64,000 nt of DNA from Ruminococcus sp. (lineage in GTDB: Bacteria > Bacillota > Clostridia > Oscillospirales > Ruminococcaceae): NCBI RefSeq assembly GCF_016287535.1, contig NZ_JAEFAJ010000013.1:1-64000 (forward strand), written 5' to 3'. Made by a program: the position numbers and the translations under genes. Below, in pieces: positions 23,982 through 64,000 of the stretch. Position 1 is the stretch's first letter, and each line of letters begins with the position of its first letter. The notes beneath the pieces were generated by a model. The model saw nothing but the letters and a program-made list of their open reading frames with translations, was not told the DNA's origin and searched no databases.

Positions 23982-23989
23982 AGATATGA

Positions 23990-24075
23990 AAAAGGGAGCT
24001 TGTGTAACAGGCTGAGAGGGAGTTTCAAACTCCGACCTTACCTGATTTGGATAATGCCAACGTAGGGAAATACTT
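23990..24075 (+). promoter_or_regulatory. TPP riboswitch (THI element)
   Basis: The conserved core is present in order: AGGCTGAGAGGG, a variable P3 stem GGAGTTTCAAACTCC, then ACCTGATTTGGATAATGCCA and CGTAGGGAAA. It binds thiamine pyrophosphate and is followed by a terminator hairpin, so thiD-cytX-thiC should be shut off when TPP is plentiful. Confidence 0.96.
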
Positions 24076-24086
24076 ATGTAAGAATA

Positions 24087-48839: not shown

Positions 48840-49209
48840 GGGGGCGTAAAGGTTTCGACGGGGGTCTTGAAGTGTGATAAGCGAGCGGAGAATGGCATGA
48901 TCTCCATAACCTGTGCCACGTTTAAATATAAACGCAAGAAATAACATTACAGTTTCTAGAAATAGCGAACTGGTAGCTGCATAAGTCAGCTTCTGTCCAC
49001 CGGGAGAGTACCGCGGCTCCCGCTTGGGCATCAATGAGCGGTGAACGACTGTCGGAAGTGTCCGTGTCCGTCAGTTGTATACGGACTACCTGTGATAACA
49101 GCCCGTTTATCGGCGGTAATTGCAGGGAATCATAATAGGTAAAATACGCTCGTAGAAAGTTGCATGAATGGGCTTTCGGACAGGAGTTCAATTCTCCTCG
49201 CCTCCACCA
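48840..49209 (+). ncRNA. ssrA: transfer-messenger RNA
   Basis: The 5' end GGGGGCGTAAAGGTTTCGACGGGGG and the 3' end GGAGTTCAATTCTCCTCGCCTCCACCA form the tRNA-like domain; the acceptor stem pairs GGGGGCG with CGCCTCC and CCA is encoded. The tag frame starts at the GCA at 48934 and reads ARNNITVSRNSELVAA before TAA at 48982-48984, ending in the usual LVAA degradation signal. Pseudoknot segments follow. It rescues stalled ribosomes with SmpB encoded nearby. Confidence 0.97.
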
Positions 49210-49404: not shown

Positions 49405-49632
49405 TCAGCCGAGAGACCTGAGCTTCTTCTGAAGCTCTATCATGTGGTTACGGCAGGCGGTTATTTCGCCTGTATATTTATTGAACCACTCTACGTCCGT
49501 TTCATCAGGCTGCTCCTGCAAAAGAATTGCCTGTACAAGTGCTGACTGGGAACGGGAACGCTTTCTCTCGATCTCCTTGATAGTGCTCATGCAGAGCTTT
49601 ATTTCCTTTTTAAGACGTCTTTTTTCGCCCAT
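49405..49632 (-). CDS. small helical protein at the end of the SipW/McrB operon
   Basis: The 75-residue protein is basic and almost wholly alpha-helical (KRRLKKEIKLCMSTIKEIERKRS, then a C-terminal helix EITACRNHMIELQKKLRSL), probably a coiled coil. There is no signal peptide or membrane segment. An AGGAGG site precedes the ATG. It is the last of seven genes in the operon and sits 18 bases after its neighbour, so it may be a cytosolic partner of the coiled-coil parts of the fusion protein. Family unknown. Confidence 0.65.
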   Translation of the reverse strand: MGEKRRLKKEIKLCMSTIKEIERKRSRSQSALVQAILLQEQPDETDVEWFNKYTGEITACRNHMIELQKKLRSLG

Positions 49633-49650
49633 AATAAATCCTCCTCTGCA

Positions 49651-50103
49651 TCAATAGCCCTGCTTGTCTATGGAATCGACAAGGGCTTTTGCCTCATCAT
49701 ACCCTTTATCAAGACCGTCAAGTATATCCTGAAGAGCTGTTTCAAGCTCGTCAAGCTTACTTCTCATCTGCTCCGGGTACTTCATAATGCAGGTATTTAC
49801 CTCGTTGATAACCTTTTTTTCATCCCCGAGGTCATCTATCAGGAACACAAATGAGGTCGCACCGCTCATATCACTGAGAATACGTCTGTATCTCAGTTCC
49901 ATATCTCCTTCGCCGTTCCTGTAGGAGCCGATGTCTTCAATAACATCTCCGAGACTTGTACGGTACTGATTCCTGTAGGTCTCCTGCACCCGTCTGACTT
50001 CATCCATGTACAGGGCAATGAATACGAGCAGTGCAATGAATGTTATAATGAACAGAATGATCGCACTAATCATTCTCCTCTTCATCAGTTTCTCTTGATT
50101 CAA
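49651..50103 (-). CDS. single-pass membrane protein of the SipW/McrB operon
   Basis: The 150-residue protein has one N-terminal helix (MISAIILFIITFIALLVFIALYM) followed by an extended helical domain (DEVRRVQETYRNQYRTSLGDV... DELETALQDILDGLDKGYDEAKALVD). The listed start is a TTG that follows AGGTG at good spacing; the ATG at 50085 is an alternative. Its first 38 bases overlap the end of the giant fusion gene, evidence of coupled translation. The helical tail may contact the coiled coil of the fusion protein. I do not recognise the family. Confidence 0.65.
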   Translation of the reverse strand: MNQEKLMKRRMISAIILFIITFIALLVFIALYMDEVRRVQETYRNQYRTSLGDVIEDIGSYRNGEGDMELRYRRILSDMSGATSFVFLIDDLGDEKKVINEVNTCIMKYPEQMRSKLDELETALQDILDGLDKGYDEAKALVDSIDKQGY

Positions 50104-53023
50104 TCGTATTCACCTCGTTTTCGGTGCTGTAGCCTATCTCCTCAAGGCGTTTCTTTTCCTTTTCGATAGCCGCACGCATTGCAGCTTCATGTTTTTCCTC
50201 AGGAGTAAGAGCTTCCTTCTCAGCGGTTTCCCTGCCGATCTTCACAACAGTCCTTGCCTCATAAACCGCAATAACCGTCATCGGTATAACCACAAGCAGC
50301 AGAAGCAGTTTCCTCATATTTACAAATGAACTGAGCCATATGAAGAACCTTGCCTTGCCGGTGTATTTGCCGACTATGTTTTCAGGCTTTACCGAAACGC
50401 TGTCATCGACCGGATTGGCGTCGCCTCTTGTTATGTAGCTTCCGTCGCTGTTCTTCCCGACTATCCTGTGAGTAACGAGAAGTCCGCGGATATCGCTCTG
50501 CTCAGAGTAGAATGAGATTATATCCCCTTCCGAAAGAGCGTTCACATCTGTCTTTTCAACTATGATATACTCACCTGTGTATATTGAAGGCTCCATGCTT
50601 CCGGTGACTACCCTGAGTATGCTCTTTCCGAAAACATTAACTGCCCTGCCGTGTGCTGAGCACACCATTACATATACAACAAAGGCAAGTGCGAGCAGTG
50701 TGATGACTGCAACTATGATATTTGATATCCTTGATGAGTTGTCCTCCTCATCAGTCTCCACGGAGCTGATTTCAAGATTTTCGATACTTTCGGCACTTGC
50801 ACGTATGCTCTCCTCAAGCTCTCTCTTCTCTTTTCTGCGGGTCTCAACAGCACGGCGAAGCTTCTCAAGGGCATTAACATGGTATTCCCTGTACAGGCGC
50901 TTCATTTCCTTATCTATTGCCAGCTGCTCCTCAGGAGTTCTTACAGGCGGGGTATATGCAGGTCTCGGCTTGTTCTTGTCAGCAATGCGCTTCTTGCGTT
51001 TGAACTTCATATCGCTGATAAAACGCATTATCCTGTACCGGGCAGCCTGCCCGTACTTCCTGTAGTAGACCTCCATATCCTTTCTTTCCTGCTTTTCGTG
51101 CTCATTTGCCTCCTGCTTTGCCTGCTTTTCAGCAAGGAGCTGTTTATAGCGCGGGTTGTCGGTATCCTTTGGTATGATTCCGAATACCACCGCAAGCAGA
51201 TGTCTTATCAGTCTGATAAGCACATATAATGGATTCCACGAATATTCGCGGTATATCTCCCTGAAAGGTTTGTTTTCAAAACGCTGTCTGTCCGCCTTCA
51301 GGCGCTGAGCGCGTTCTGTTTCGGCGCGTTCCTTTTCACGCCGCTGCTGCTCCAGCTTTTTTCTTGCCGCAACAGCTCTCGGATCCTCGAAGCTCTCGCC
51401 TTCCTCGTTTGATTCAAGTTCAGCCTTTGCTTCCTCGATCTCTTCTTCTGTGACTTCGTCATAAGCCTGCTTTTCAAGCTCAGCCTCGTCAGGCTCCCTG
51501 TTTAGCGCTTCCTCGTCCAGACCCTCAGCTTCACCGAGCTCGTTTCTGGCGATCTCCTTATTATGGCGTATCTCCTCACGCTCTGCGGCAAGTCTTTCTT
51601 CCTCCTCGCGTCTGAGACGTGCTTCCTCCTCGCGCTTGCGTATCTCCTCAAGTCTTGCAAGGCGTTCTGCTTCAAGCCGCTGGCGTTCGCGTTCCTCCGC
51701 TTCCTGCTCGGCGCGCTTCTGCTCCAGCATTTCCTGAACGCGGCGCTCCTCTTCTTCCTTGGCTATGCGGATACGCTCCAGTTCTGCCTGTCTTGCTTCC
51801 TCGATACGCTGCATCTCGGCGAGCCTTGCCTCTTCCTCCTGACGGCGCTTTTCTTCCTCCGCACGCTCGGTCTCGAGCTTTGCGAGATACTCTGTCTCCA
51901 GCTTTATAACTAAAGATAGCTCCTGAAACATCTCCGTCAGATTTTCGGGAAGATGCTTCTCCATTTTGAAATCGCCGTCCGCAGCGATATATCCTGCTGT
52001 AGTCTCGGAGGAAACACTGTAATCCGCTGCAAGGGTCTTGTCGAATTTCTTCAGGAACTTAGGCGCTATCGGCTTGCCCGTCTGAGTCTTCAGATGAGTC
52101 AGCTTATCAGCTGTATCCACGTTCATGTACGAACGGAAAAGCAGCAGATTCAGCACTACAAGCTTGTAGAAATCGTTTACATAGTCCTCCTGCGGCTGCA
52201 TCGCAGTATTTTCTACGTTTATCTCATAGCCAACCTTGTCGTAGCTCTCTATATACTGCCAGAGCGTCAGGCAGGCTTTCAGATCCACGTTTTTCATGAT
52301 CGCGTTGGTACGCATTACAGGCGGTCGTATATATGTATTTCCAAGAGCTTTGCAAAGCTCCGAGCCCTTGTAGCCCTCAATAGCTGTTTTCAGCTTTTCG
52401 ACACGCTGCCATACGGTATATCCGTTGGCGTCATAGGAATCGAGATTGTCTATTGTCTCTATCTTCAGATCTATCTTCATCTTTCCGCCCGAACCGTCAT
52501 CTATCACCGTATCGTAGCCGAGAGTATAGACCTCTTCGTCCTTTGATACCTGTGCAAGCTTCTCATAGCGGGTATTTATGAAGATGTAAAGTCTGTCGAT
52601 AAGGGTGTTTATGAATTTGTTCTCGTAGGTCAGCAGACTTTCTTCCTTATGTACGTTCAGTATCTTCGACGGAGTTATCTTTCCCGTCTTCCTGTCAACG
52701 CTCTGGATAAGGTCTGTATGCTGCGCAAGGTGCTTGACCGATTCTATGGTGGTCTTTCTTGACAGCGCTATAGGTACTATCTCCTCCACGTCTTCTATAG
52801 TACGTCTCGGACTTCTCAGGAAATTATCAACATGGATAATGCCGTTCTCTATAGCCTCTACCCACGATACATCTATCGCCTTCTCCATAAGTTTACGGTT
52901 GAAGGCAAATGTGTTACGGCTCGCATTCAGCAGGGAATCAAGTGCATTGTATAACTCATCACTGCCGAATACCTCAGTAAGTATCGAAAACTCACTGTAC
53001 CACTTGCTGTATAAGTCGTTCAC
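50066..53023 (-). CDS. DUF2357-like domain-coiled coil-SipW-type signal peptidase fusion
   Basis: The 985-residue protein starts with GTG after an AGGTGAGG site. Residues 1-350 resemble the DUF2357-type helical domain that accompanies McrB-like ATPases in type IV restriction loci (for example KEESLLTYENKFINTLIDRL); I see no PD-(D/E)xK nuclease motif. A Glu/Arg-rich coiled coil spans about 380-500, with more charged helical sequence to about 760. One helix follows (about 773-793), then a complete S26B/SipW-type signal peptidase: serine S809 in VTGSMEPSI, histidine H852 in LVTHRIVGK, and the GDANPVDD acidic box; a last helix lies near 900. It should be a membrane enzyme with its long arm in the cytosol. 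No such fusion is known to me. Confidence 0.75.
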   Translation of the reverse strand: MNDLYSKWYSEFSILTEVFGSDELYNALDSLLNASRNTFAFNRKLMEKAIDVSWVEAIENGIIHVDNFLRSPRRTIEDVEEIVPIALSRKTTIESVKHLAQHTDLIQSVDRKTGKITPSKILNVHKEESLLTYENKFINTLIDRLYIFINTRYEKLAQVSKDEEVYTLGYDTVIDDGSGGKMKIDLKIETIDNLDSYDANGYTVWQRVEKLKTAIEGYKGSELCKALGNTYIRPPVMRTNAIMKNVDLKACLTLWQYIESYDKVGYEINVENTAMQPQEDYVNDFYKLVVLNLLLFRSYMNVDTADKLTHLKTQTGKPIAPKFLKKFDKTLAADYSVSSETTAGYIAADGDFKMEKHLPENLTEMFQELSLVIKLETEYLAKLETERAEEEKRRQEEEARLAEMQRIEEARQAELERIRIAKEEEERRVQEMLEQKRAEQEAEERERQRLEAERLARLEEIRKREEEARLRREEEERLAAEREEIRHNKEIARNELGEAEGLDEEALNREPDEAELEKQAYDEVTEEEIEEAKAELESNEEGESFEDPRAVAARKKLEQQRREKERAETERAQRLKADRQRFENKPFREIYREYSWNPLYVLIRLIRHLLAVVFGIIPKDTDNPRYKQLLAEKQAKQEANEHEKQERKDMEVYYRKYGQAARYRIMRFISDMKFKRKKRIADKNKPRPAYTPPVRTPEEQLAIDKEMKRLYREYHVNALEKLRRAVETRRKEKRELEESIRASAESIENLEISSVETDEEDNSSRISNIIVAVITLLALAFVVYVMVCSAHGRAVNVFGKSILRVVTGSMEPSIYTGEYIIVEKTDVNALSEGDIISFYSEQSDIRGLLVTHRIVGKNSDGSYITRGDANPVDDSVSVKPENIVGKYTGKARFFIWLSSFVNMRKLLLLLVVIPMTVIAVYEARTVVKIGRETAEKEALTPEEKHEAAMRAAIEKEKKRLEEIGYSTENEVNTIESRETDEEEND

Positions 53024-53047
53024 TTGTCCTCACCTGCTTTTTCCGAA

Positions 53048-54619
53048 TCAGAACAGCTTCTGGAGTCTTTCAAGGTAAGCTATGGATTCGTTCATTTTAT
53101 TCTTGCCGAATGTCTTGGTCATGTAGGCACAAAGTTCACGAAGCTCTTCTCTCAGCATGGCGAGATTGAGAGATTCAAATTTACGGAATATCTTTGTAGC
53201 GAGTATGTAGTCGATACCGTCAAGCTCGTCGCCGCCGCAGGCTACATATACCGGCACAAAGAGGTTCATCTGCTTCAGGATACGGTTACCGAAGGCAACT
53301 CTCAGCTTCTCTATTACCCAGAGGTCAAGCTGTTGTATCTTCTTGAGATTTTCCTGTGATATGGGATATTTGTCGAACGCATCCCTGAACAGCTGATCAA
53401 GGTGATCGAAGCCAAGGTTCATAGGCGGCGTATCGGGCGCATCAAACGCTACGCCCTTTGAGTCAAGATTGATAGGCTGAGCACGGTCGTAAACCTTATC
53501 GGAAATAGCGAATGTGGAGTCATCGTTGTTCGCTGTTCCGATATACCATATATTCTGCGGGATGCGTATCTTGCCCTTGTCAAGATTCTCAGGGTCAGTG
53601 CTCCATACATTGGGAACAATATCAAGTTCCCACTCGTCTGCGTTCGGCATTTCGAGGATGGAGAGCATTTCCGCGAAGTAATACTCGACACGGGCGATGT
53701 TCATCTCATCGAGAAGGATAAGGTTTACATCGTTGTTATAGCCTGACGAATAGATTCGTTTGAGCACCTCTGTCTCGTTGAAGTTCTTGGTAAATTCGTT
53801 GAAGTATCCGAAAAGCTCCGTTCTGTCACGCCATGAAGGCTGTACGGAAGCTATGGTCGTATCCACCTGCAGGAACTTACCGAAGGAGTACGGGAGAGAG
53901 GTCTTACCTGTACCGGAAATACCCTGAAGGATTATCAGCTTGGTCGAAGCCATACCGGCCATGAACAAGCGTACTACCTTGGGCTCATAGTACAGATGCA
54001 TTCTTGAACACGCAAAATTTCTGAAATTCTCACAAATACCTACAAGGTCGATATCGTTGTCATACTCAGGCGGAGTATATGTCTTGTAGAAGGTATCCAC
54101 TTCGATGAGCTTTGAAAATCTGTGCTCTGTCGTCTGGACAACGCCGCTCTCCACAACTGCCGGCTGAGCTTCTCCGCCTTCTCCTTCCGCACCTGCCGCA
54201 TTTCCGTCAGCAAACGACAATGCACCAGAGCCTGCGGGAAGCCCCATCTGGGCGACCTTCATAGCCATGATCTCGTCCTTTTCCTTTGCCATCTTCATGA
54301 CCTTTCTCTGCAGCTCGGATATCTCCTCAAGGAGATCCTCATTGCTGACGAGGGAATGTCTGAAGCGTATATATTTTCGTATACCGAAGAATATGAGCAT
54401 TGCCAGGAGAACGTATATTGCTATTACGACCACTATCGCAAATATGGACAGTACCCAGCCTAAGGCACCGTAATTCTGAGAATGTTCCTTGAAGATATCT
54501 ATGTAGTTCTTTATGTTGAAGATCTGCTTGATACCGTGACCGAAGCCGCGTATTATCTCTGCATAACCCTTCAGCATCTCAGAAATAAATGCAAAAAACC
54601 ATTTTAGAAATTCATTCAT
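53048..54619 (-). CDS. membrane-tethered McrB-like AAA+ ATPase
   Basis: The 523-residue protein (start at 54619 after GCGGAGA; the track start would overlap the signal peptidase stop) has a hydrophobic helix near residue 55 (VLSIFAIVVVIAIYVLLAMLIFFGI), a short coiled coil (ELQRKVMKMAKEKDEIMAMK), then an AAA+ domain: Walker A GISGTGKTS at about 233-241, SWRDRTELFGYFNEFTKNF, Walker B VNLILLDEMNIARVEYYFAE, and sensor-like IGTANNDDSTFAISDKVYDRA. These match McrB-type ATPases, which drive GTP- or ATP-fuelled DNA restriction. Membrane anchoring and pairing with a DUF2357-signal peptidase fusion argue for a different job at the membrane. Confidence 0.85.
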   Translation of the reverse strand: MNEFLKWFFAFISEMLKGYAEIIRGFGHGIKQIFNIKNYIDIFKEHSQNYGALGWVLSIFAIVVVIAIYVLLAMLIFFGIRKYIRFRHSLVSNEDLLEEISELQRKVMKMAKEKDEIMAMKVAQMGLPAGSGALSFADGNAAGAEGEGGEAQPAVVESGVVQTTEHRFSKLIEVDTFYKTYTPPEYDNDIDLVGICENFRNFACSRMHLYYEPKVVRLFMAGMASTKLIILQGISGTGKTSLPYSFGKFLQVDTTIASVQPSWRDRTELFGYFNEFTKNFNETEVLKRIYSSGYNNDVNLILLDEMNIARVEYYFAEMLSILEMPNADEWELDIVPNVWSTDPENLDKGKIRIPQNIWYIGTANNDDSTFAISDKVYDRAQPINLDSKGVAFDAPDTPPMNLGFDHLDQLFRDAFDKYPISQENLKKIQQLDLWVIEKLRVAFGNRILKQMNLFVPVYVACGGDELDGIDYILATKIFRKFESLNLAMLREELRELCAYMTKTFGKNKMNESIAYLERLQKLF

Positions 54620-54663
54620 AATAATCTCCGCAGATCCGGGTATCACCGCAGATCTTTGCCGGA

Positions 54664-55569
54664 TCATCCGGCATTGTCATCAGTTTTTTCCGCTATCTCT
54701 GAAAGTTCCTCTGCTGCCTCTTCTTTTAGATCTTCTGCTTTTTCTTCTATCTTTTCGGCAGCGCCGGAAGTTATCTCCTCTGCCTTTTCCTTAATTGCTT
54801 CCGCTTTTTCTTCAAGCTTTTCTGCGGCACCGGAAGCTGCTTCCTCTGCCTTTTCCTTAATTGCTTCCGCTTTTTCTTCAAGCTTCTCTGCGGTATCGGA
54901 AACCTTTTCCTTTACCGCTTCAGCCTTTCCGGCGATATTGTCGGCTTTTTCTCCCTTGCTTGCAAGGTATTCCTCAATAGCGCGGCGCTTGATCTCTTCC
55001 TCGTCAAGCTGCTCCGCAGCAGCCGGACGCCTTACCTCAATAAGTGCAACGATGAACTTGTAAAGCTCGAAAAGGAAGAATATCGCCATCGGAATGAGTA
55101 TACAAATAAAGAAGCCCTTCTTTGTACGCAGGAAAGCCATAAACTTTCCCAAGCCCACTATCTTTGTATTTGTCCATTTACCGATGATGTCGCTTGCGTA
55201 TGCAGGAGCTGTATCGTCGATAGGATTGTTATCGCCTCGTGTAACAAAGCTCCTTGCGCCCTCATCGGCATTGACGCTTACGATCCTATGGGTGTTCTTT
55301 ACTCTTACCCCGTCTATGACAGTCCAGAAGGTAATGACATCACCCTCTTTAAGACTGTTGAGATCATCGATCTCCTTACAGATTATAAGATCATTCTTAC
55401 TGAAGGTAGGTTTCATTGAATCTGATTCTACCGTCATCGGAATGTAACCGAAAAGATTTGCCACACCGTTGTTCCTGCCGGATGAGAATACTATTATTGT
55501 TATCAGAAGCGCAAATATAAGCACTATCCATGCGATCACATTTGCTCCGACTCTAAGTACCTTTTTCAT
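54664..55569 (-). CDS. SipW-type signal peptidase I with Ala/Glu/Lys repeat tail
   Basis: The 301-residue protein is an S26B (ER/SipW-type) signal peptidase: N-terminal helix (VIAWIVLIFALLITIIVF), serine S51 in VESDSMKPTF, histidine H94 in KNTHRIVS, the acidic GDNNPIDD box, and a C-terminal helix (FFICILIPMAIFFLFELYKF). After the helix comes a cytosolic tail of about 110 residues containing repeats of EKLEEKAEAIKEKAEE-type units. SipW enzymes cleave TasA-like and other surface proteins. It lies between the membrane protein gene (25 bases away) and the AAA gene. Such a tail is unusual for signal peptidases. Confidence 0.88.
   Translation of the reverse strand: MKKVLRVGANVIAWIVLIFALLITIIVFSSGRNNGVANLFGYIPMTVESDSMKPTFSKNDLIICKEIDDLNSLKEGDVITFWTVIDGVRVKNTHRIVSVNADEGARSFVTRGDNNPIDDTAPAYASDIIGKWTNTKIVGLGKFMAFLRTKKGFFICILIPMAIFFLFELYKFIVALIEVRRPAAAEQLDEEEIKRRAIEEYLASKGEKADNIAGKAEAVKEKVSDTAEKLEEKAEAIKEKAEEAASGAAEKLEEKAEAIKEKAEEITSGAAEKIEEKAEDLKEEAAEELSEIAEKTDDNAG
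54710..54907. repeat. 66-bp tandem repeat in the signal peptidase gene
   Basis: Two nearly identical 66-bp units (54776-54841 and 54842-54907) and a more divergent third unit before them encode 22-residue Ala/Glu/Lys-rich helical repeats. Confidence 0.85.
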
Positions 55570-55594
55570 ATTGATTATACTCCTTTTATTGAAA

Positions 55595-56308
55595 TTAAGT
55601 TGATTCGGTTATCTTGAAGTTCATTCCGAGCTTCAGTGTACCGCCGATTATATCATCAATACAGTCGGGATCATTTCCCTCCAGCCATATAACAACGGTA
55701 AATTTGTCTTTTTCATTTGCCTTAAATCCCTCAGATGAGGTCCTCATGACTATACCTGATGTCAGAAACTCGCTGTCGCAATCGCTTTCCATGCCTCCGC
55801 CGTTGGACTTGGTCTTTCCGTAAACAGTCTTCTCGCCGTTCTTGTATACCGCAATTCTGACGGCTTCATCGACCTTCTTCGTGACATTTTCAATGACCAT
55901 TTCGCCTGTATAGCTGATGGTATCATCTCCCGAATTTATAAGATAGAAGGTATAGGCTATGTAATTATCGCCGTTATGACTTCCGTTTATCTTGTCAATA
56001 TTTTCGGGAAGGTCTCTGCCGCTTATGTTCGTCATATCGTAAACGATGTTAGCATTGAGCACTGCTATAGACCTGTCATATTCGGGAGTTTCCGACAGTG
56101 TAAGTCCCTGATGCACCATGTCGTACTTGTTGACCTTTACCGTAAAACTTCCGAACTTATCATAGAAATAGGATATCGCATACGCAACAGCCACAATAAG
56201 CACAAGAATTATCACCAGCAGGCCGAGTATCCTCATAAGGACGACATGACGCTTGACCTCTTTTGCAGTTCTTCTGAGTTCAAGGACATCAATCAATTTA
56301 TCATCCAC
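55595..56308 (-). CDS. membrane-anchored protein with TasA-like extracellular domain
   Basis: The 237-residue protein starts with GTG after GGAGAG. It has a short cytosolic end, one helix (ILGLLVIILVLIVAVAYAISYF), and an extracellular beta-rich domain: NYIAYTFYLINSGDDTISYTGEMVIENVTKKVDEAVRIAVYKNGEK and the end FTVVIWLEGNDPDCIDDIIGG. This layout and the closing motif recall the TasA/camelysin-like proteins processed by SipW, but the usual cleavage region after the helix is not obvious. It could be a substrate or a fixed structural part. The signal peptidase gene follows 25 bases downstream. Confidence 0.7.
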   Translation of the reverse strand: MDDKLIDVLELRRTAKEVKRHVVLMRILGLLVIILVLIVAVAYAISYFYDKFGSFTVKVNKYDMVHQGLTLSETPEYDRSIAVLNANIVYDMTNISGRDLPENIDKINGSHNGDNYIAYTFYLINSGDDTISYTGEMVIENVTKKVDEAVRIAVYKNGEKTVYGKTKSNGGGMESDCDSEFLTSGIVMRTSSEGFKANEKDKFTVVIWLEGNDPDCIDDIIGGTLKLGMNFKITEST

Positions 56309-56373
56309 AGTGAACTCTCCAATCCTTATATATTAGTTCTGCGTAAAAGCGCAGAAACTGTTTTTCCGTATGT

Positions 56374-57132
56374 TCAGTTTTCGGATTTCTTTCGTACATA
56401 TCTTTCCGTCATGTACTTGCCGGAAAGGTTTCCTGCACAGTACGCACATTCAAACGAATAGAGCATTTCCGCCTGATGGCTGTTGAAAACGCCGTCGGCT
56501 ATGGGCTCTGATCCGATATCATTCACAAAGGAAATGATCGACCTTACCGCGTTGTCAGAACGCTCTCCCCTGCCGATATAATTTGCCACCTCCGGGCTGA
56601 GCATTACGAAGTCGACAGGATAATCCGAGAGGCGCATAAGAGGACATGAGCTTCCGCCGAAATCCGTAAGCATAAAGTGAAATCCGAGGTTACGCATCGT
56701 CTGTATCGTTGAAGGTACCTGTTCGTCAGTTTCCGTAAGTAGCTTCGAGGAAAGCTCAAAACAGATACGGCTCGTGGCGACCTGATAGCGTGCGGCATAG
56801 TCGGCTGCAAACTTTGTGGTCCTCTTTTCACGCAAAAGACGTACAGGAAGATAGACTGACAGCCAGTTGAATCCAATATCACGCTCATAAAACGATGAAT
56901 TTGCTTCAAGAGCCTGTATAAGCTCCAACCGGAACAGCTGATCCGCCTGATTTGTCATTTCAGCTACATCACGGTACGTGTCGGGTGAAAGTACGCCTAA
57001 ATTAGGCGAATTCAGCATAGTCTTCGTCTGGATGAAAGCGGTCTGACCGCTTGATATCTCCCTGATATTCCGATAATTGAGCTCAACGGCGCGGAGACCG
57101 TCAACCGTTGCCTTTAAATTCTTTTCTGCCAT
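56374..57132 (-). CDS. degenerate EAL-domain protein
   Basis: The 252-residue protein aligns by pattern with EAL c-di-GMP phosphodiesterases: VELNYRNIREISSGQTAFIQTKTML in the EAL position, LSPDTYRDVAEMTNQADQLFRLEL, ICFELSSKLL, NLGFHFMLTDFGGSSCPLMRL and IGSEPIADGV. The catalytic residues are lost: EAL reads IQT, and the DDFG motif reads TDFGG. It is therefore probably a binding or scaffold protein. It opens the seven-gene SipW/McrB operon with its own consensus promoter. It may sense c-di-GMP or only hold partners together; both are inference. Confidence 0.78.
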   Translation of the reverse strand: MAEKNLKATVDGLRAVELNYRNIREISSGQTAFIQTKTMLNSPNLGVLSPDTYRDVAEMTNQADQLFRLELIQALEANSSFYERDIGFNWLSVYLPVRLLREKRTTKFAADYAARYQVATSRICFELSSKLLTETDEQVPSTIQTMRNLGFHFMLTDFGGSSCPLMRLSDYPVDFVMLSPEVANYIGRGERSDNAVRSIISFVNDIGSEPIADGVFNSHQAEMLYSFECAYCAGNLSGKYMTERYVRKKSEN

Positions 57133-57174: not shown

Positions 57175-57203
57175 ATTATACCATATTTACAGTGCAATGT
57201 CAA
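57175..57203 (-). promoter_or_regulatory. perfect consensus promoter of the SipW/McrB operon
   Basis: On the minus strand TTGACA, 17 bp, TATAAT, 43 bases before the EAL-like gene. Confidence 0.9.
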
Positions 57204-57337: not shown

Positions 57338-57372
57338 TAAAAATAACCCGCCGGACTATCGCCCGACGGGTT
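57338..57372 (-). terminator. terminator of the putative ncRNA
   Basis: On the minus strand AACCCGTCGG and CCGGCGGGTT pair and are followed by ATTTTTA. Confidence 0.8.
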
Positions 57373-57626
57373 GAGGTATAGAATATGAGCAAGCTGTCGA
57401 TTAATAAAGTTTGTTTCGCTGCACCGTCAGCACCAAACTGACGGTGCATAAAACTGAAGGTTTTATGTGCCTATGATGAATCTTTTATTATGGAACTCTC
57501 TGCCATAACTGCTTAGAGCTCACAGACCATTTTTACAAGGCTTTTCATAAACCTGATCCGTTCGGATCAATAAATAGAGGGCATTTTTTAAGTGATCTGG
57601 GGGATCGACTTATACCTTTTGTTTAC
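57338..57626 (-). ncRNA. probable structured non-coding RNA of about 290 nt
   Basis: A perfect promoter lies just upstream and a terminator at its end, with no credible ORF between. The two ends can pair (AGGTATA with TATACCT, then GTCGAT with ATCGAC), enclosing hairpins TGATCC-GAAC-GGATCA, CATAAAAC-CTTCA-GTTTTATG and GCACCGTCAG-loop-CTGACGGTGC. It lies between the giant surface protein gene and the EAL-SipW operon on the same strand. I could not match it to a known RNA class; a 6S-like RNA, riboswitch leader or unknown class remain possible. Confidence 0.6.
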
Positions 57627-57632
57627 AATTAT

Positions 57633-57661
57633 ATTATACCTCGCCCACACTGATTTGTCAA
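57633..57661 (-). promoter_or_regulatory. perfect consensus promoter of the putative ncRNA
   Basis: On the minus strand TTGACA, 17 bp, TATAAT. Confidence 0.85.
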
Positions 57662-57823: not shown

Positions 57824-57870
57824 GAAAAAGCAGCGGCTCAGGAAGCAGGTATGCCGCCTCCCGAGCCGCT
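57824..57870 (-). terminator. terminator after the giant surface protein gene
   Basis: On the minus strand AGCGGCTCGGGAGGC pairs with GCTTCCTGAGCCGCT and a T run follows, just past the stop codon. Confidence 0.82.
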
Positions 57871-57889: not shown

Positions 57890-60800
57890 TCATTCGATAA
57901 TGCTCGTCAACAGTTTTGCGTGTGTGTAGATAACATGATCGTCATCCTTGGAACCCTCCATATTCTCCGTTGCGGCAGTATCAGTAAACATCTCGATCTC
58001 AAGCTTTATCATGTAATTTGAATAATAATAAGAGCGCTCATTTTCATCAGTTTTACCGAATTGGTCTCCTATTATCACATTGAAGCTAACTGGTATCTGA
58101 TATACATTTGTATCCGGATCATAATCGAAGTAATTGCTCGGATTAGTCACAGTATACACTATCTTCTTCGGATCTGACGTGTTTGGAGTTGGCGCGGATA
58201 CAGGCTCCTCGCCTTCCTCCTGCTCCGCTCCGGAGATTGCCAGTCCATCAATATATTCAGCGATGTCAAGCGCTGTTCCGTAGTTTTGCTTCCGGCTGAC
58301 CGTAAACGTCAGCTTCATGCTTTTCATGTTCTGAACATTATCAGCTGCTGACAGATCTGATACGTCATAGACAGCTTTCAGCTTTACCGGAACATATCCG
58401 TCATCTGTAAGACTTTCCGGATCAATATCATTTGCGTTGATACCGAACTGGTAGAACTCACCGTGATCATTGTCTGCGTCGTCCGAATTCAGCGTGAGTA
58501 TCGCATTGGTATTGATAGTACAGTAATATGAGTATGTTGTCTCCCACATAGTACCTGCCTTTACCGCGACATTCTTACTGTATACCGCTGCCTCCGGAGT
58601 AGACGCTACATTCGACGAACCGCCGATAAGGGTTCCTATGCTGCTTTGACTGAGATTTGAAGAGTCACGTGTCGGGAACTGAGCAGCAAGCTTATCTTCT
58701 TCTGTATATGAAAGCTCAAATGTGGCAGAGATATTGTATTTCTTACCGGCACTTTCACAAGCCTGCTTCATATAATTCTTCAGGTTCGTATTTCCGCGGA
58801 GCTCTATATGATTTGCCGTGGTCATCTCATTTGTATTGGGATCAGACATTCCGGTGCTCGTAGCAGGATTGACATCGATCCGGTAATCAATTCTGCGTAC
58901 ATCCGTGTCGGTACTGTCATCATGTTCGATATGTCCGATCGTATACTCCGATACGTGAATATCAGAAGGACGTGAGGCTATACCTTGTACCGACGATGAA
59001 GCCGACTGCTTTTTGAACATTATCAGGAAACTCTGATAAACCTCTACATTGGACAGTCCGAAGCTTGATCTAAGGGTATTTTTAAGTGCTTCGTTCACGC
59101 CGACATCTACGCTGAATGTAGCCCATATCTTATCATTTGTCTTGTTTGATATCAGTGACATTTCTGTTCTGGTGTTCATATCACTGATACTGAAGTTTTC
59201 ATTTACAAAAATGTCACCTGTTATGATATGCGAAGCATAATTGTCAGATGCAAGAGTAGGATAATCACTGTTTCCGAAGCTTCCTCTATCGTCAAATTCA
59301 AGATGATACAGCTCAGCATTATTTGAAGTATCGTTTTCCGTGAAAAATGTTATATAATAGTCGTCCTGTATCTTTCCGTCCTTTGTATTTGCATTCGTAT
59401 CGCCGGCAGTGTTTATTGAAGACTTGTACGAAAGAGTGATCACATAACCTCCGGTATTACCACTGGAATTATCAATAGCATAATAATTTGTGCCGTCGGA
59501 AATGATCGCATCTTCCTCAGATTGTACTGTTTTAAACTTTACATTCGCATTTTCATCCGCATTAGTTACTGTAACATCAAAGTAATCATTGAGGACAGGC
59601 GGTGAATAATGAGCTGAATTCGCATTGCTGAGTTCTTTTCTGAATGATGTGAAATTGAAATTGTATGAAGTCGAATTCCGCCACGTTCCTGCTCCGACAT
59701 CAGTCTTCGACGCATAATAATAGCTGTTTTTGCGGTTAACATCGACAAGCACCATTTGCGTTCCATCCGGCAGACCGCCTATATGATCTGTGACACGAAT
59801 TATCCTGTCAAACGAGGTATGCAGCAGATCTTCGCCGGATTCAAGTGACGACTGCCAGCCTGCAAGGTCACGGTCATAGGTCCACTGGACCTCAAGAGTA
59901 ACAGGATTTCCGATATTATCTATCAGCGTATTACCTGTTCCGCTGCTTCGTTTATTCTCATAAGGAGCTATCCTGTAATTTGTGCCGGAAAGGAATGACG
60001 AATGGAAGTCATAGTACAGCATTTTCTTGATAAGCACCGGTACATACAGATGATAGGCGATCTTCCTGTTGGCAGAAGTGTCACCGGGATCGTAGAACTG
60101 AACATCTATCAGGGTAAAACGTGCCCCGACCTCGTTGTCGTACATTCCTTTCTGAAGCTGGAATTCACCGCTTCTGTTCAGCAGGTACGAACCGTTTGCA
60201 TTTCCGTTTGTGTCATATTCACCTGAACAATAGTCAAATCTGCCGGTGCCGGCGTTCCAGACGCAGGCTCCGAGCTGAATATTGAACACATCTGAATTGC
60301 CTTCTGCAAAATCAAAGGATGTATTTGTCAGGTATTGCAGATAATTATTGAAGAACTCTGTTGTAGTCTCCTTCGTAGCATCGTCCCATACAACAACAGG
60401 GAAATTGACTGTTACGCCATCGCCTGCCTTCAAGCCCATTTCCTTTTGATATGACGAATACTTGCCATAGGTATTGAGCTTGCTTATCAGCGAAGCCTTT
60501 GCGCTGCCGCTGCTGTCGCCGGTCTTAGTATACTTCTTTGCGTCCGTAGCGTTAAGTATCGCTCCTATAGTGGAATTTGCATAGGTTATTGACCTGTTGT
60601 AGCCGACGGCATCGCCTGTCAGGAACTGCGTTCCGGAGATATATTTCTTTGGATTTGTAGTAACATAAGGCGGGAGGTTTGTTCCGGGCTTTGTCTTGTT
60701 GACTGTTTCTGTCTTTGTAACGTAGTACAGCTCATGATCCTGAGAATTATTGCAGTAAGATGTAAAGTCTGCTATTTCTGCGGCAGTAGGGGTTCTTGGT

Positions 60801-63800
60801 GATTCTGCACTTGGAGTACTAAAGGTAAATGTTCCATTTGTTTCACTAACCGTGCCATAGTCCCATGCTTTTAGCGCTTTTTCATCAGGAACGGAATAAA
60901 TTATGAAATCGCAGTTACCATTTGGATTGTCAGCATAGTATCTTATACCGCCGCCACCATTGGAGTGCAATAGGTATTCCTTAGCTGTTCCTTTTTTCTT
61001 AAAACGAAATGTCTTTTTTCCATTAGAATCTGTTCCATTACTTACTTCAAATAATTCAGCATTATTTTTACTAAAAGCAGCACGTGTAGTATTTGATGCG
61101 TGATAAATGTAGTATTTCACATTTTGTGATATACCGTTGATTTCCTCCTCCACAACTTTATAAATCTTATAATAGTCAACTCCATTCTCCGTTGCTTTTT
61201 CAAAATAATAAACCTCTGCATCTTTTAGATCCATACTTTGTGCAATAACTTGTCCTTGTTTAGTTGTGGTGTTCTTTTTATAAAACTCTGTAATAGTTCC
61301 AGTAAGATATCCCATTTTTTTATTATTACAATCATCAAGTAAGTTATTCTGTCCAACACAGTAGATATAAAATCCATTTGTCGTTTTGCCATTGACAGTT
61401 GCACCATAAGCAGCAAATCCATCTATACTTGAAAGCGCAGTAGGATTATTGACCAAATACGCAAGCTTTGTACCCGCGCTATAGCTTGTTCCATTTGTAC
61501 CCTGTTCGTTATAGTGGTCAGTCTTGGGATTTTGCTCACCCGCGATTTCTCGTTCATGAGCATTGCTCATTGATGGTATACCGCCGCTGGCAACAGGGAT
61601 AGCGTATTTCGTTACAGTATCATCACGTCCGTCCGGCACAGTATCTATAACATTGGTTCCACCGGTATCGACATTGGAGAACAGTTCGTTTCCAACTGTC
61701 GTTGCCATATTATTATAGTCTGCAAATACAACATAGCCTCCTGATCCGTATTCGCCTCCGGCGTTATTTTGTCCGACCAGCTCAGCGATCATGGTGTTTG
61801 CGCCCTTGATGTCCTGCCTGCTGAATCCTGCGAGCTTAATGAAAGGAATTGTACCTGTTCTTCTATTTGTGATTTTTGATTGATCACCTTCGCTTGTATT
61901 ATAGGTACAGTTCTCACTTTTGGTATTGATTGAACCGCAGATATAACCAGCTTTGTATGAAGGCTCCTGGTTTTCTTCCAATGGCGTATACTGATCAAAA
62001 GCAATATCACTTGCAAGAATATTATATCCTACAACAGGCTCGTTCATCTCACCTATCAGACCGCCCGCCATGTCATCTGTTTTCATCGTGCAGTCGGTTA
62101 CCTTGATATTGTTCAGATACAGATAAACAGAATCATCATAAGCTCCTCTGAAACCGATAATGCCGCCTGCGCCCTTTTTGCCTGCGATAGTATAGCCGCT
62201 GATAGAGCAATTGTTGAATTCAAATTCACGGCTTCCGTTGCTTTCATTCTCTCTCGGGTCGGAGCTTCCTATCATACCGCCTGCAAAATCAGTGGTACTC
62301 TCGATCGTAGAGTTAAGCGGACTCAAAAGATGTGTATTGACAACTTTAGCAGGCGTTCTTGTCGTTGGGAACGCAACAAGTCCTGCCGCACCGAACTTTG
62401 CAACTACACTAAGGTTATAGAAGGTACAGCCTTCAATTGTAATACCTGCACACTTATTCATTATTCCAACAACACCGGCAGTAAAGATATCTGTATTTTC
62501 ACATTCAACTTCTTGCCGCTGCTCCGGTGTTCCGATAACAATGTTTTTGAAGAAATTAGAGCTTCTGTCTGTATCATTATCAGCAGCACTTGCACCTACA
62601 TTAGCTCTCATCATGCCGACAAATCCTCCGACACCGAAGTCGTAGTAGTTTCCGCCTCTTGAATTTGTATTGTCACAAACTACCTCTGTGAGGTTAAAGG
62701 TGTTGCCGCCCATATCGACCTTAGCGTATCCGGCATTGAGCTTGCCTATCATTCCACCTGTGCTCGCCCTGCCGTGAACCTTTATCTTATCAGAATCATA
62801 GTTCGTATCAGCATCTACATCATATTTAAGCGTGGTAGGCGAACCATCCGGACCATTTGTAGTTGTTTGATATCCAACAAGTCCTCCGGTATTACGAAGA
62901 CCGAAAACATCAATATTTGTCAGCGCCATATTCTCGATCGTAGTATTCTGAACTGCTGTTCCGATAAGCATTCCTGCTGACAGATACTGCCCGTTGTTCA
63001 GAGCATTTGGAGATTTGGATGTAACAAAGCTTCCGTCCTTTTGGCTGACAAGATCGGTCTTTACATTGCCTGTCAGGAAGAGATTCTGATATGCGCCTGC
63101 AAAACTAATATAATTGATAAATCCAAGACCGCCGTCAATACCTGCCTTTGGAGGATAGGCTGTATCAAAATTCGTGTCATAGTAGTAGTAGCTTGTGTTC
63201 TGCGAAATAGTCTTGCCGCTGCCGTCAAAGGTCACTATCTTTATCCTGTAAGCATCGACGCTGTTAAACAGATTTCCGATACCCTTAAAGCCGTCAGGAA
63301 GAATAATATCACCAGAAACCTCGCTGTCGATCGTAAGCGTCAGGCTATTGTTGTCGGCAAAAATTTTCCCTGTTTTATTATATGCGCTTGAAAGATAGCC
63401 ATATTGAGCAGATTTATGTAAGCCTGAATCTAAAACATCATTTTTGGCCTTATTATTATAATCATTGCAGCTTGTACTTGTTCCCTCGGAAGTTCCGATA
63501 TCGGAGTAGTCTGCCGATCTTGAGACTTTATAAGCCTGTTTGTAGCCAAGAGTTTCTTTTTCAATTCCGCTGTTGATAATAAGCGACATCAGGAAAAGGT
63601 CCTGACCGCTGTCAATATTTACATCATCTGATTCATTATTATCTATTGTATCAGATGTGTCGATATCAGTTATAGAATAATGCTTTCTGCCGTTTTGCAG
63701 AGTAACAGTATTTCCGGATACAGGGCTTCCGCTTCCGAAAGCTCTCTCGCCGTTCTCATAAGGAGCATAAGCTTCTGATTCAGTAACGGCAAATCCGTTG

Positions 63801-64000
63801 ATAACACGTCCGATGTATGGATTTATGTAAAGCCATGCCATATTGTCAAGATACTCGGTCGTTGCTGTATAATCTGAATCAGCAGAAACATAATCCTGAG
63901 ATTCGCCGCTTGGTTTATAAGCTGTATCAGGAGTTCCGTTTATAAGATCATCATATAATCCGGCTTCCGCATAAGCAGCCGCAGCGTCGCCCATATTTCT
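57890..64000 (-). CDS. giant surface protein, C-terminal 2036 residues (N-terminus outside the window)
   Basis: The frame is open to the window edge. The visible part is extracellular in character: low Cys and rich in Asn, Asp, Thr, Gly and Tyr. Residues about 350-800 contain Gly-rich GLUG-like units typical of beta-helix adhesins (NTGGLVGYQTTT, STGGMIGKLNAG, GVGGFVGMMRAN, GAGGIIGFRG, MAGGLIGEMNE). The rest is predicted beta-sandwich; there is no LPXTG, dockerin, SLH or C-terminal helix visible, so attachment is unclear. A stretch around 60.8-61.5 kb is richer in AT than the flanks. It is next to the SipW/McrB operon and is its best candidate substrate, which is inference. Confidence 0.75.
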   Translation of the reverse strand, partial: RNMGDAAAAYAEAGLYDDLINGTPDTAYKPSGESQDYVSADSDYTATTEYLDNMAWLYINPYIGRVINGFAVTESEAYAPYENGERAFGSGSPVSGNTVTLQNGRKHYSITDIDTSDTIDNNESDDVNIDSGQDLFLMSLIINSGIEKETLGYKQAYKVSRSADYSDIGTSEGTSTSCNDYNNKAKNDVLDSGLHKSAQYGYLSSAYNKTGKIFADNNSLTLTIDSEVSGDIILPDGFKGIGNLFNSVDAYRIKIVTFDGSGKTISQNTSYYYYDTNFDTAYPPKAGIDGGLGFINYISFAGAYQNLFLTGNVKTDLVSQKDGSFVTSKSPNALNNGQYLSAGMLIGTAVQNTTIENMALTNIDVFGLRNTGGLVGYQTTTNGPDGSPTTLKYDVDADTNYDSDKIKVHGRASTGGMIGKLNAGYAKVDMGGNTFNLTEVVCDNTNSRGGNYYDFGVGGFVGMMRANVGASAADNDTDRSSNFFKNIVIGTPEQRQEVECENTDIFTAGVVGIMNKCAGITIEGCTFYNLSVVAKFGAAGLVAFPTTRTPAKVVNTHLLSPLNSTIESTTDFAGGMIGSSDPRENESNGSREFEFNNCSISGYTIAGKKGAGGIIGFRGAYDDSVYLYLNNIKVTDCTMKTDDMAGGLIGEMNEPVVGYNILASDIAFDQYTPLEENQEPSYKAGYICGSINTKSENCTYNTSEGDQSKITNRRTGTIPFIKLAGFSRQDIKGANTMIAELVGQNNAGGEYGSGGYVVFADYNNMATTVGNELFSNVDTGGTNVIDTVPDGRDDTVTKYAIPVASGGIPSMSNAHEREIAGEQNPKTDHYNEQGTNGTSYSAGTKLAYLVNNPTALSSIDGFAAYGATVNGKTTNGFYIYCVGQNNLLDDCNNKKMGYLTGTITEFYKKNTTTKQGQVIAQSMDLKDAEVYYFEKATENGVDYYKIYKVVEEEINGISQNVKYYIYHASNTTRAAFSKNNAELFEVSNGTDSNGKKTFRFKKKGTAKEYLLHSNGGGGIRYYADNPNGNCDFIIYSVPDEKALKAWDYGTVSETNGTFTFSTPSAESPRTPTAAEIADFTSYCNNSQDHELYYVTKTETVNKTKPGTNLPPYVTTNPKKYISGTQFLTGDAVGYNRSITYANSTIGAILNATDAKKYTKTGDSSGSAKASLISKLNTYGKYSSYQKEMGLKAGDGVTVNFPVVVWDDATKETTTEFFNNYLQYLTNTSFDFAEGNSDVFNIQLGACVWNAGTGRFDYCSGEYDTNGNANGSYLLNRSGEFQLQKGMYDNEVGARFTLIDVQFYDPGDTSANRKIAYHLYVPVLIKKMLYYDFHSSFLSGTNYRIAPYENKRSSGTGNTLIDNIGNPVTLEVQWTYDRDLAGWQSSLESGEDLLHTSFDRIIRVTDHIGGLPDGTQMVLVDVNRKNSYYYASKTDVGAGTWRNSTSYNFNFTSFRKELSNANSAHYSPPVLNDYFDVTVTNADENANVKFKTVQSEEDAIISDGTNYYAIDNSSGNTGGYVITLSYKSSINTAGDTNANTKDGKIQDDYYITFFTENDTSNNAELYHLEFDDRGSFGNSDYPTLASDNYASHIITGDIFVNENFSISDMNTRTEMSLISNKTNDKIWATFSVDVGVNEALKNTLRSSFGLSNVEVYQSFLIMFKKQSASSSVQGIASRPSDIHVSEYTIGHIEHDDSTDTDVRRIDYRIDVNPATSTGMSDPNTNEMTTANHIELRGNTNLKNYMKQACESAGKKYNISATFELSYTEEDKLAAQFPTRDSSNLSQSSIGTLIGGSSNVASTPEAAVYSKNVAVKAGTMWETTYSYYCTINTNAILTLNSDDADNDHGEFYQFGINANDIDPESLTDDGYVPVKLKAVYDVSDLSAADNVQNMKSMKLTFTVSRKQNYGTALDIAEYIDGLAISGAEQEEGEEPVSAPTPNTSDPKKIVYTVTNPSNYFDYDPDTNVYQIPVSFNVIIGDQFGKTDENERSYYYSNYMIKLEIEMFTDTAATENMEGSKDDDHVIYTHAKLLTSIIE

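Follow-up and report, generated by a model that had tools for sequence, protein, structure and literature searches.

Seven ORFs run along the minus strand from 57132 to 49405 of the window (the whole 64,000-nucleotide stretch of Ruminococcus sp. DNA that was analyzed), with gaps between them that are short or replaced by overlaps, and all seven are real, as an earlier note on this DNA had proposed (Table 1). Chance was excluded as the source of this gene set, since it is conserved in 80 loci of other genomes. A TPP riboswitch (23982-24085, plus strand) and a tmRNA gene (48840-49209, plus strand) also lie in the window, and both are ordinary.

Table 1. Positions in the window of the gene set, its domains, and neighboring features.
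Feature	Position	Strand	Basis or remark
Degenerate EAL-domain protein, 252 aa	56374..57132	-	Pfam EAL E 2e-28; catalytic positions replaced
TasA-like protein, 237 aa	55595..56308	-	Profile match to STYAWF pilin-like family; marginal fold hits
SipW1 (SipW-type signal peptidase, variable helical tail)	54664..55569	-	NCBIfam SipW E 2e-29
McrB-type AAA+ NTPase, N-terminal TM helix and coiled coil	53048..54619	-	PDB profile match, motifs
McrC-SipW2 fusion, 985 aa	50066..53023	-	Pfam, NCBIfam; fused state also in relatives
DUF2357 (McrC N-terminal) part, residues ~1-310	52094..53023	-	Pfam PF09823 over residues 67-163; model confident to ~310
McrC long helix/coiled coil, residues ~362-496	51536..51940	-	DSSP of predicted model
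SipW2 signal peptidase domain, residues 766-944	50192..50728	-	NCBIfam SipW E 2.4e-27
150-aa helical protein, one N-terminal TM helix	49651..50103	-	ORF, hydropathy; kept beside SipW2 in relatives
75-aa helical protein without TM helix	49405..49632	-	ORF, hydropathy; kept in relatives
Promoter-like site of the set, TTGACA-17-TATAAT	57175..57203	-	12/12 positions, ~40 bp upstream of first gene; consensus match only
Terminator-like hairpin between second promoter and set	57345..57372	-	Strong hairpin
Second promoter-like site	57633..57661	-	Strong; downstream element common to pilin-gene promoters
Terminator-like hairpin after giant gene	57832..57870	-	17-pair stem with T tail
Giant surface protein	57890..64000, continues past window	-	Starts near contig position 69697; neighbor, outside core set

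Proteins encoded by the set

The E. coli McrB was the PDB match of the McrB family profile (E 9e-5, profile positions 211-388), and the window protein carries the motifs GISGTGKT (Walker A), LLDEMN (Walker B), and GTANNDD. A simple pattern search found GTANNDD or GTINNDD in 84 of 92 McrBs (the remaining 8 matched off-target first), and the NND column is invariant in our alignment A1; N-N-D-D also spells NxxD and is read here as NxD followed by D. Hydropathy places a TM helix at the N terminus of every McrB listed, and a conserved helical segment comes after it. Together, these features identify the protein as an AAA+ NTPase with a single predicted N-terminal TM helix. Its ORF is open to 54667, but homologue alignment favors a start at 54619 (MNEFLK...), which is most likely that of the gene.

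The DUF2357 part of McrC was matched above the Pfam gathering score (E 8e-7), and the domain was likewise matched in 45 of 50 aligned McrC homologues. Foldseek with the McrC model returned nothing below E 1e-3; the E. coli McrC (6ut6_G) stood out by probability alone, as a local match with a probability of 0.80 and an E value of 0.33, and comparison of the McrC profile with PDB sequences yielded only coiled-coil proteins. A nuclease domain is absent from the window McrC and from every relative scanned, including ten full-length relatives, and no DNA-binding domain was found in the McrB/McrC pair. McrC proteins encoded separately from SipW2 have no strong TM helix by hydropathy, although many contain one moderately hydrophobic stretch, while SipW2 contributes two TM helices by the same measure. 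The AAA+ and DUF2357 parts are thus expected to be cytosolic and the peptidase domains to lie outside, a sidedness that derives from hydropathy.

SipW1 and SipW2 both score under the SipW equivalog cutoff but exceed that of TIGR02228, the archaeal-type signal peptidase model. Most relatives retain the Ser, His, and Asp active-site motifs. In the EAL-domain protein, QTK stands in place of the EAL motif and TDFG in place of DDFG, and other residues occupy the K and E positions; these sites are likewise altered in aligned relatives, and the protein is probably catalytically dead. The TasA-like protein consists of one N-terminal TM helix followed by a predicted outer beta-sandwich (model pLDDT 74). 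It has no match in Pfam, NCBIfam, or PDB sequences and belongs to no recognizable TasA/camelysin family; a helicase, the sole PDB-sequence match of its profile, was set aside as spurious. Its profile does match that of the STYAWF pilin-like family (E 1.3e-11), whose genes lie further up the contig, and its model gave marginal fold hits to pilins (E ~5e-3), including the archaeal bundling pili 7ueg. We regard the TasA-like label as the weakest of the set's identities, and the protein as a candidate SipW substrate or fiber subunit.

Most of what the earlier note had read from the ORFs was borne out by these searches, the likeness to DUF2357 included: an inactive EAL protein, a membrane-tethered McrB-like AAA+ protein, a single gene combining a DUF2357-like part, a coiled coil, and a signal peptidase, and two small helical proteins, both of which are conserved in relatives. 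The helical repeat tail that it gave to the first SipW-type peptidase is present here but differs in length between relatives. Of its membrane protein with a TasA-like domain, the TM helix stands, whereas the domain lacks a TasA family-model or PDB-sequence match and is supported by the STYAWF profile and the marginal folds.

Conservation of the set and joining of McrC to SipW2

A scan of species-representative genomes gave at least 479 confirmed relatives, the best 80 of which, from Ruminococcus, Eubacterium, Lachnospiraceae, and other Clostridia, were used for gene order. In these 80 loci, the order EAL, TasA-like, SipW1, McrB, McrC, SipW2, 150 aa, 75 aa is near-constant, so the genes stay together across Ruminococcus, Eubacterium, and Lachnospiraceae and not just among close relatives, as the earlier note's reading demanded. 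Cultured carriers include Ruminococcus flavefaciens, R. albus, R. bicirculans, Eubacterium ruminantium, and E. uniforme, and McrB was matched at E 1e-50 or better in 21 of 391 sampled genomes of the class. A phylum-wide search at E 1e-20 returned, beyond the window itself, AAA-domain matches only (~80-116 bits); these were taken for generic McrB relatives and left out of the counts.

More distant families of Clostridia have looser sets, in which SipW genes and either TasA-like or pilin-like genes are usual and EAL genes frequent. In loci L205-L207, from one such family, McrB and McrC are surrounded by three to four SipW-type genes. Elsewhere in the Clostridia, TM-anchored McrB and McrC relatives that keep the NNDD motif occur without SipW (L212-L216); in L212-L215, a single McrC is flanked by two different McrB genes, and in L214 and L215, the neighbors of McrB and McrC are a ribosomal-protein-like gene cluster and a >1300-aa protein.

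Of 84 loci, 31 encode McrC and SipW2 as a single polypeptide and 53 as separate genes, and a second, slightly different sample contained 39 fused and 33 separate cases; the fused and split labels, like the gene starts, are computational, and many of the loci come from metagenome assemblies. The label of one locus, L055, is doubtful, as a separate SipW2 gene comes after its "fused" one. Where the two genes are separate, their median spacing is -4 nt, i.e., they typically overlap or nearly touch. Mapped onto the McrB tree, the two states require 8 changes, against a mean of ~25 for shuffled labels, and at least 4 of the 8 are forced by well-supported branches; a single fusion event is therefore not supported. 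Repeated joining or splitting is expected of partners that work together, and the covalent link would imply direct contact between McrC and the signal peptidase.

The co-occurrence of the genes was followed in 60 genomes, where strong McrB and McrC matches were found in the same 16. The TasA-like gene was present in 15 of the 16 genomes with the system and in none of the 44 without it (Fisher p 3e-13, shared ancestry ignored); the one exception, G004, has a partial McrB at a contig edge. McrBC-type genes are common and also found on plasmids, and the pair might on that ground be taken for a passenger in a fiber operon. We give this next to no credence, given the near-complete co-occurrence with the TasA-like gene, the repeated joining of McrC with SipW2, and a gene order fixed across families with genes overlapping.

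Upstream region and pilin-like partners

Between the second promoter-like site and the hairpin that precedes the set (57345-57661, minus strand) lie ~280 nt without a convincing ORF, ~80% identical in a close relative (L092). No Rfam family matched this unit, which is possibly a small RNA or a decayed leader. Just downstream of the promoter-like site is the element TTGTAAACAAAAGGTATAAG (57609-57628, minus strand). In the R. flavefaciens group, the same element occurs 65-100 nt upstream of pilin genes of the A7 type, two of them in this genome (G000 C2:74361-74389 and C41:32463-32491, the latter contig bearing the second pilin gene with the element), and further sites are found in G006, G007, G010, and G019. 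These positions hint at shared control of the gene set and the pilins.

Pilin-like families also follow the system across the 60 genomes: A7 was found in 11 of the 16 genomes with it versus 1 of the 44 without (Fisher p 1e-7), and A5 in 8 of 16 versus 1 of 44 (Fisher p 4e-5), shared ancestry being ignored in both tests. In G035, the pilin-like genes are on another contig than McrB, so this co-occurrence goes beyond linkage. G007, from the same genus, carries the promoter element together with the two pilin-like families (C21:11574-16416) and has no McrB or McrC match, which reflects either an assembly gap or a fiber that manages without the set. Profile comparison found families A5 and A6 to be unrelated.

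Four smaller proteins are encoded upstream of the giant surface protein, and three of them have SipW-class sites (YAWF, IAWF, and YSWF) just past a hydrophobic stretch; in the window, such a site was found in none of 41 other ORFs of at least 150 aa. At least one SipW-class pilin-like gene besides the core is present near 38 of 49 long loci. In the first version of the motif control, 7 of 119 control ORFs matched, although this control is not clean, since the systems themselves lie beside some of the control loci. The earlier note had suggested that the set exports or assembles the giant surface protein, and the window and several relatives do have giant genes close to the set. The giant protein, however, has no SipW-class cleavage motif, is not adjacent to the set in many loci, and belongs to a separate transcription unit, with a terminator-like hairpin of its own and a promoter-like site before the set. 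It would be a poor sole client, and we consider this explanation very improbable; the TasA-like protein and the SipW-class pilin-like proteins appear to be better candidates.

A possible role in fiber biogenesis and relation to known systems

In McrBC, the McrB hexamer holds the finger of McrC in its pore, and a model based on rotation has been put forward (PMC7680126). At this locus, the McrC nuclease is replaced by a membrane peptidase, and the simplest reading is that the McrBC type of coupling has been turned to the SipW-dependent processing or assembly of surface subunits. We think it reasonably probable that the set acts in surface-fiber biogenesis, and a motor from defense would then probably have been put to the making or control of fibers. 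In our best reading, an NTP-driven McrB ring would work via McrC on the signal peptidase. McrB would form this ring as in McrBC, here below the membrane, and the DUF2357 finger would occupy the pore. NTP hydrolysis by McrB would displace McrC, and SipW2 would receive this movement, or a gating signal, through the coiled coil. At the outer face, the TasA-like protein and the pilin-like subunits would lose their SipW-class signal anchors to cleavage by SipW1 and SipW2 and then polymerize. The degenerate EAL protein would probably be a regulator, perhaps a c-di-GMP receptor. The fiber reading draws on the constant gene order, the co-occurrence of the system with TasA-like and pilin-like genes, the joining of McrC to SipW2, the retained peptidase motifs, the TM helix of McrB, and the lack of a nuclease domain in McrC. 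Weighing against it are the weak TasA-like identification, co-occurrence statistics that leave shared ancestry uncorrected, the two pilin-like families of G007 in a genome with no McrB match, and the five related loci (L212-L216) that have McrB and McrC but no SipW. The ATP drive suggested in the earlier note is conjectural: characterized McrB proteins use GTP (PMC7680126), and according to the CoCoNuT study (PMC11090510), no McrB with an NxD motif has been characterized.

Sequence alone cannot tell a motor from a switch. That McrB-McrC is a mechanical assembly motor, in which the McrC stalk is joined to the peptidase that releases the subunits, seems possible but less likely than not. It is unlikely, in our judgment, that the pair is instead an NTP-dependent sensor that toggles the peptidases or relays a cytosolic signal, for instance c-di-GMP, to subunit processing while the fibers assemble themselves. 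That possibility draws on the degenerate EAL protein within the set, on the extra EAL-containing genes beside several distant relatives, and on the TasA-type fibers of Bacillus, which assemble by donor-strand exchange without a known motor, so that a motor is dispensable in principle (PMC9674648); it leaves unexplained why a ring NTPase and a pore-inserting partner have been retained.

A role in antiphage defense resembling that of the CoCoNuT relatives, in which the peptidases and pilin-like proteins would be membrane effectors or receptors, seems to us improbable. McrBC ancestry and the patchy presence of the system within the genus are compatible with it, as are the grouping of CoCoPALM with restriction systems in the literature (PMC11090510) and the match of McrB, in its AAA part only, to the PADLOC candidate-defense model PDC-M26A (E 6e-39). 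Against it, none of the McrC proteins scanned has a nuclease domain, the rest of the set's proteins have no strong PADLOC match, the genes that constantly accompany the pair encode signal peptidases and a TasA-like protein, and unlinked pilin genes co-occur with the system. Should fiber biogenesis be the function, a restriction motor would have been recruited to it in fiber-degrading bacteria of the gut and rumen; should the motor reading hold as well, the set would represent a new class of Gram-positive fiber-assembly machine with SipW-class beta-sandwich subunits.

Type IV pilus assembly ATPases likewise are ring NTPases that act on a membrane partner handling processed subunits, but the likeness is one of analogy only, as the proteins and subunits of this locus are unrelated to them. 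The tapA-sipW-tasA operon of Bacillus subtilis (PMC9674648) also places a SipW gene beside genes for membrane-exported beta-sandwich fiber proteins, which here are predicted; a second SipW enzyme and an AAA+/McrC pair set the locus apart from that operon, Bacillus having no known motor. The McrBC systems of E. coli and Thermococcus (PMC7680126, PMC6624300) resemble the locus in pairing a DUF2357 protein with an AAA+ domain that bears McrB motifs, but the locus is membrane anchored, has NxD instead of NxxD, and contains no nuclease or DNA-binding domain that we could find; a type IV restriction system of the McrBC type was rejected because the PD-(D/E)xK nuclease is absent from the window McrC and ten full-length relatives. 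CoCoNuT systems share the NxD branch of McrB and the coiled coils, and their McrC often lacks an active nuclease (PMC11090510); the HEPN, other nuclease, or RNA-binding domains of CoCoNuT were not found in the set.

The closest counterpart is CoCoPALM, named in two sentences by Bell et al. (2024, eLife; PMC11090510), the single fitting description that our literature search found, and the search found no function for it. As characterized in those sentences, CoCoPALM combines an McrB NTPase bearing TM and coiled-coil helices (FtsB-like) and an NxD motif usually followed by D/E, a coiled-coil McrC (DUF2357), and signal peptidases. The TM and coiled-coil helices, the motif, the coiled-coil McrC, and the signal peptidases are all present here, and because every published feature that could be tested agrees, we filed the locus as CoCoPALM; the assignment goes by these features. 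The membrane complex joining McrB and DUF2357 with SipW that the earlier note had called new is thus supported as a membrane system but not as a new kind. The main text of that paper is silent on the TasA-like, EAL, 150-aa, and 75-aa genes and on SipW-class pilin-like partners, and the signal peptidases that it mentions are linked, whereas here a second SipW is part of the McrC polypeptide itself. What is new is therefore the McrC-SipW fusion variant and the link to fibers, in a system that was already known, and the locus offers a testable function for CoCoPALM, with named candidate clients, a covalent McrC-peptidase, and cultured carriers.
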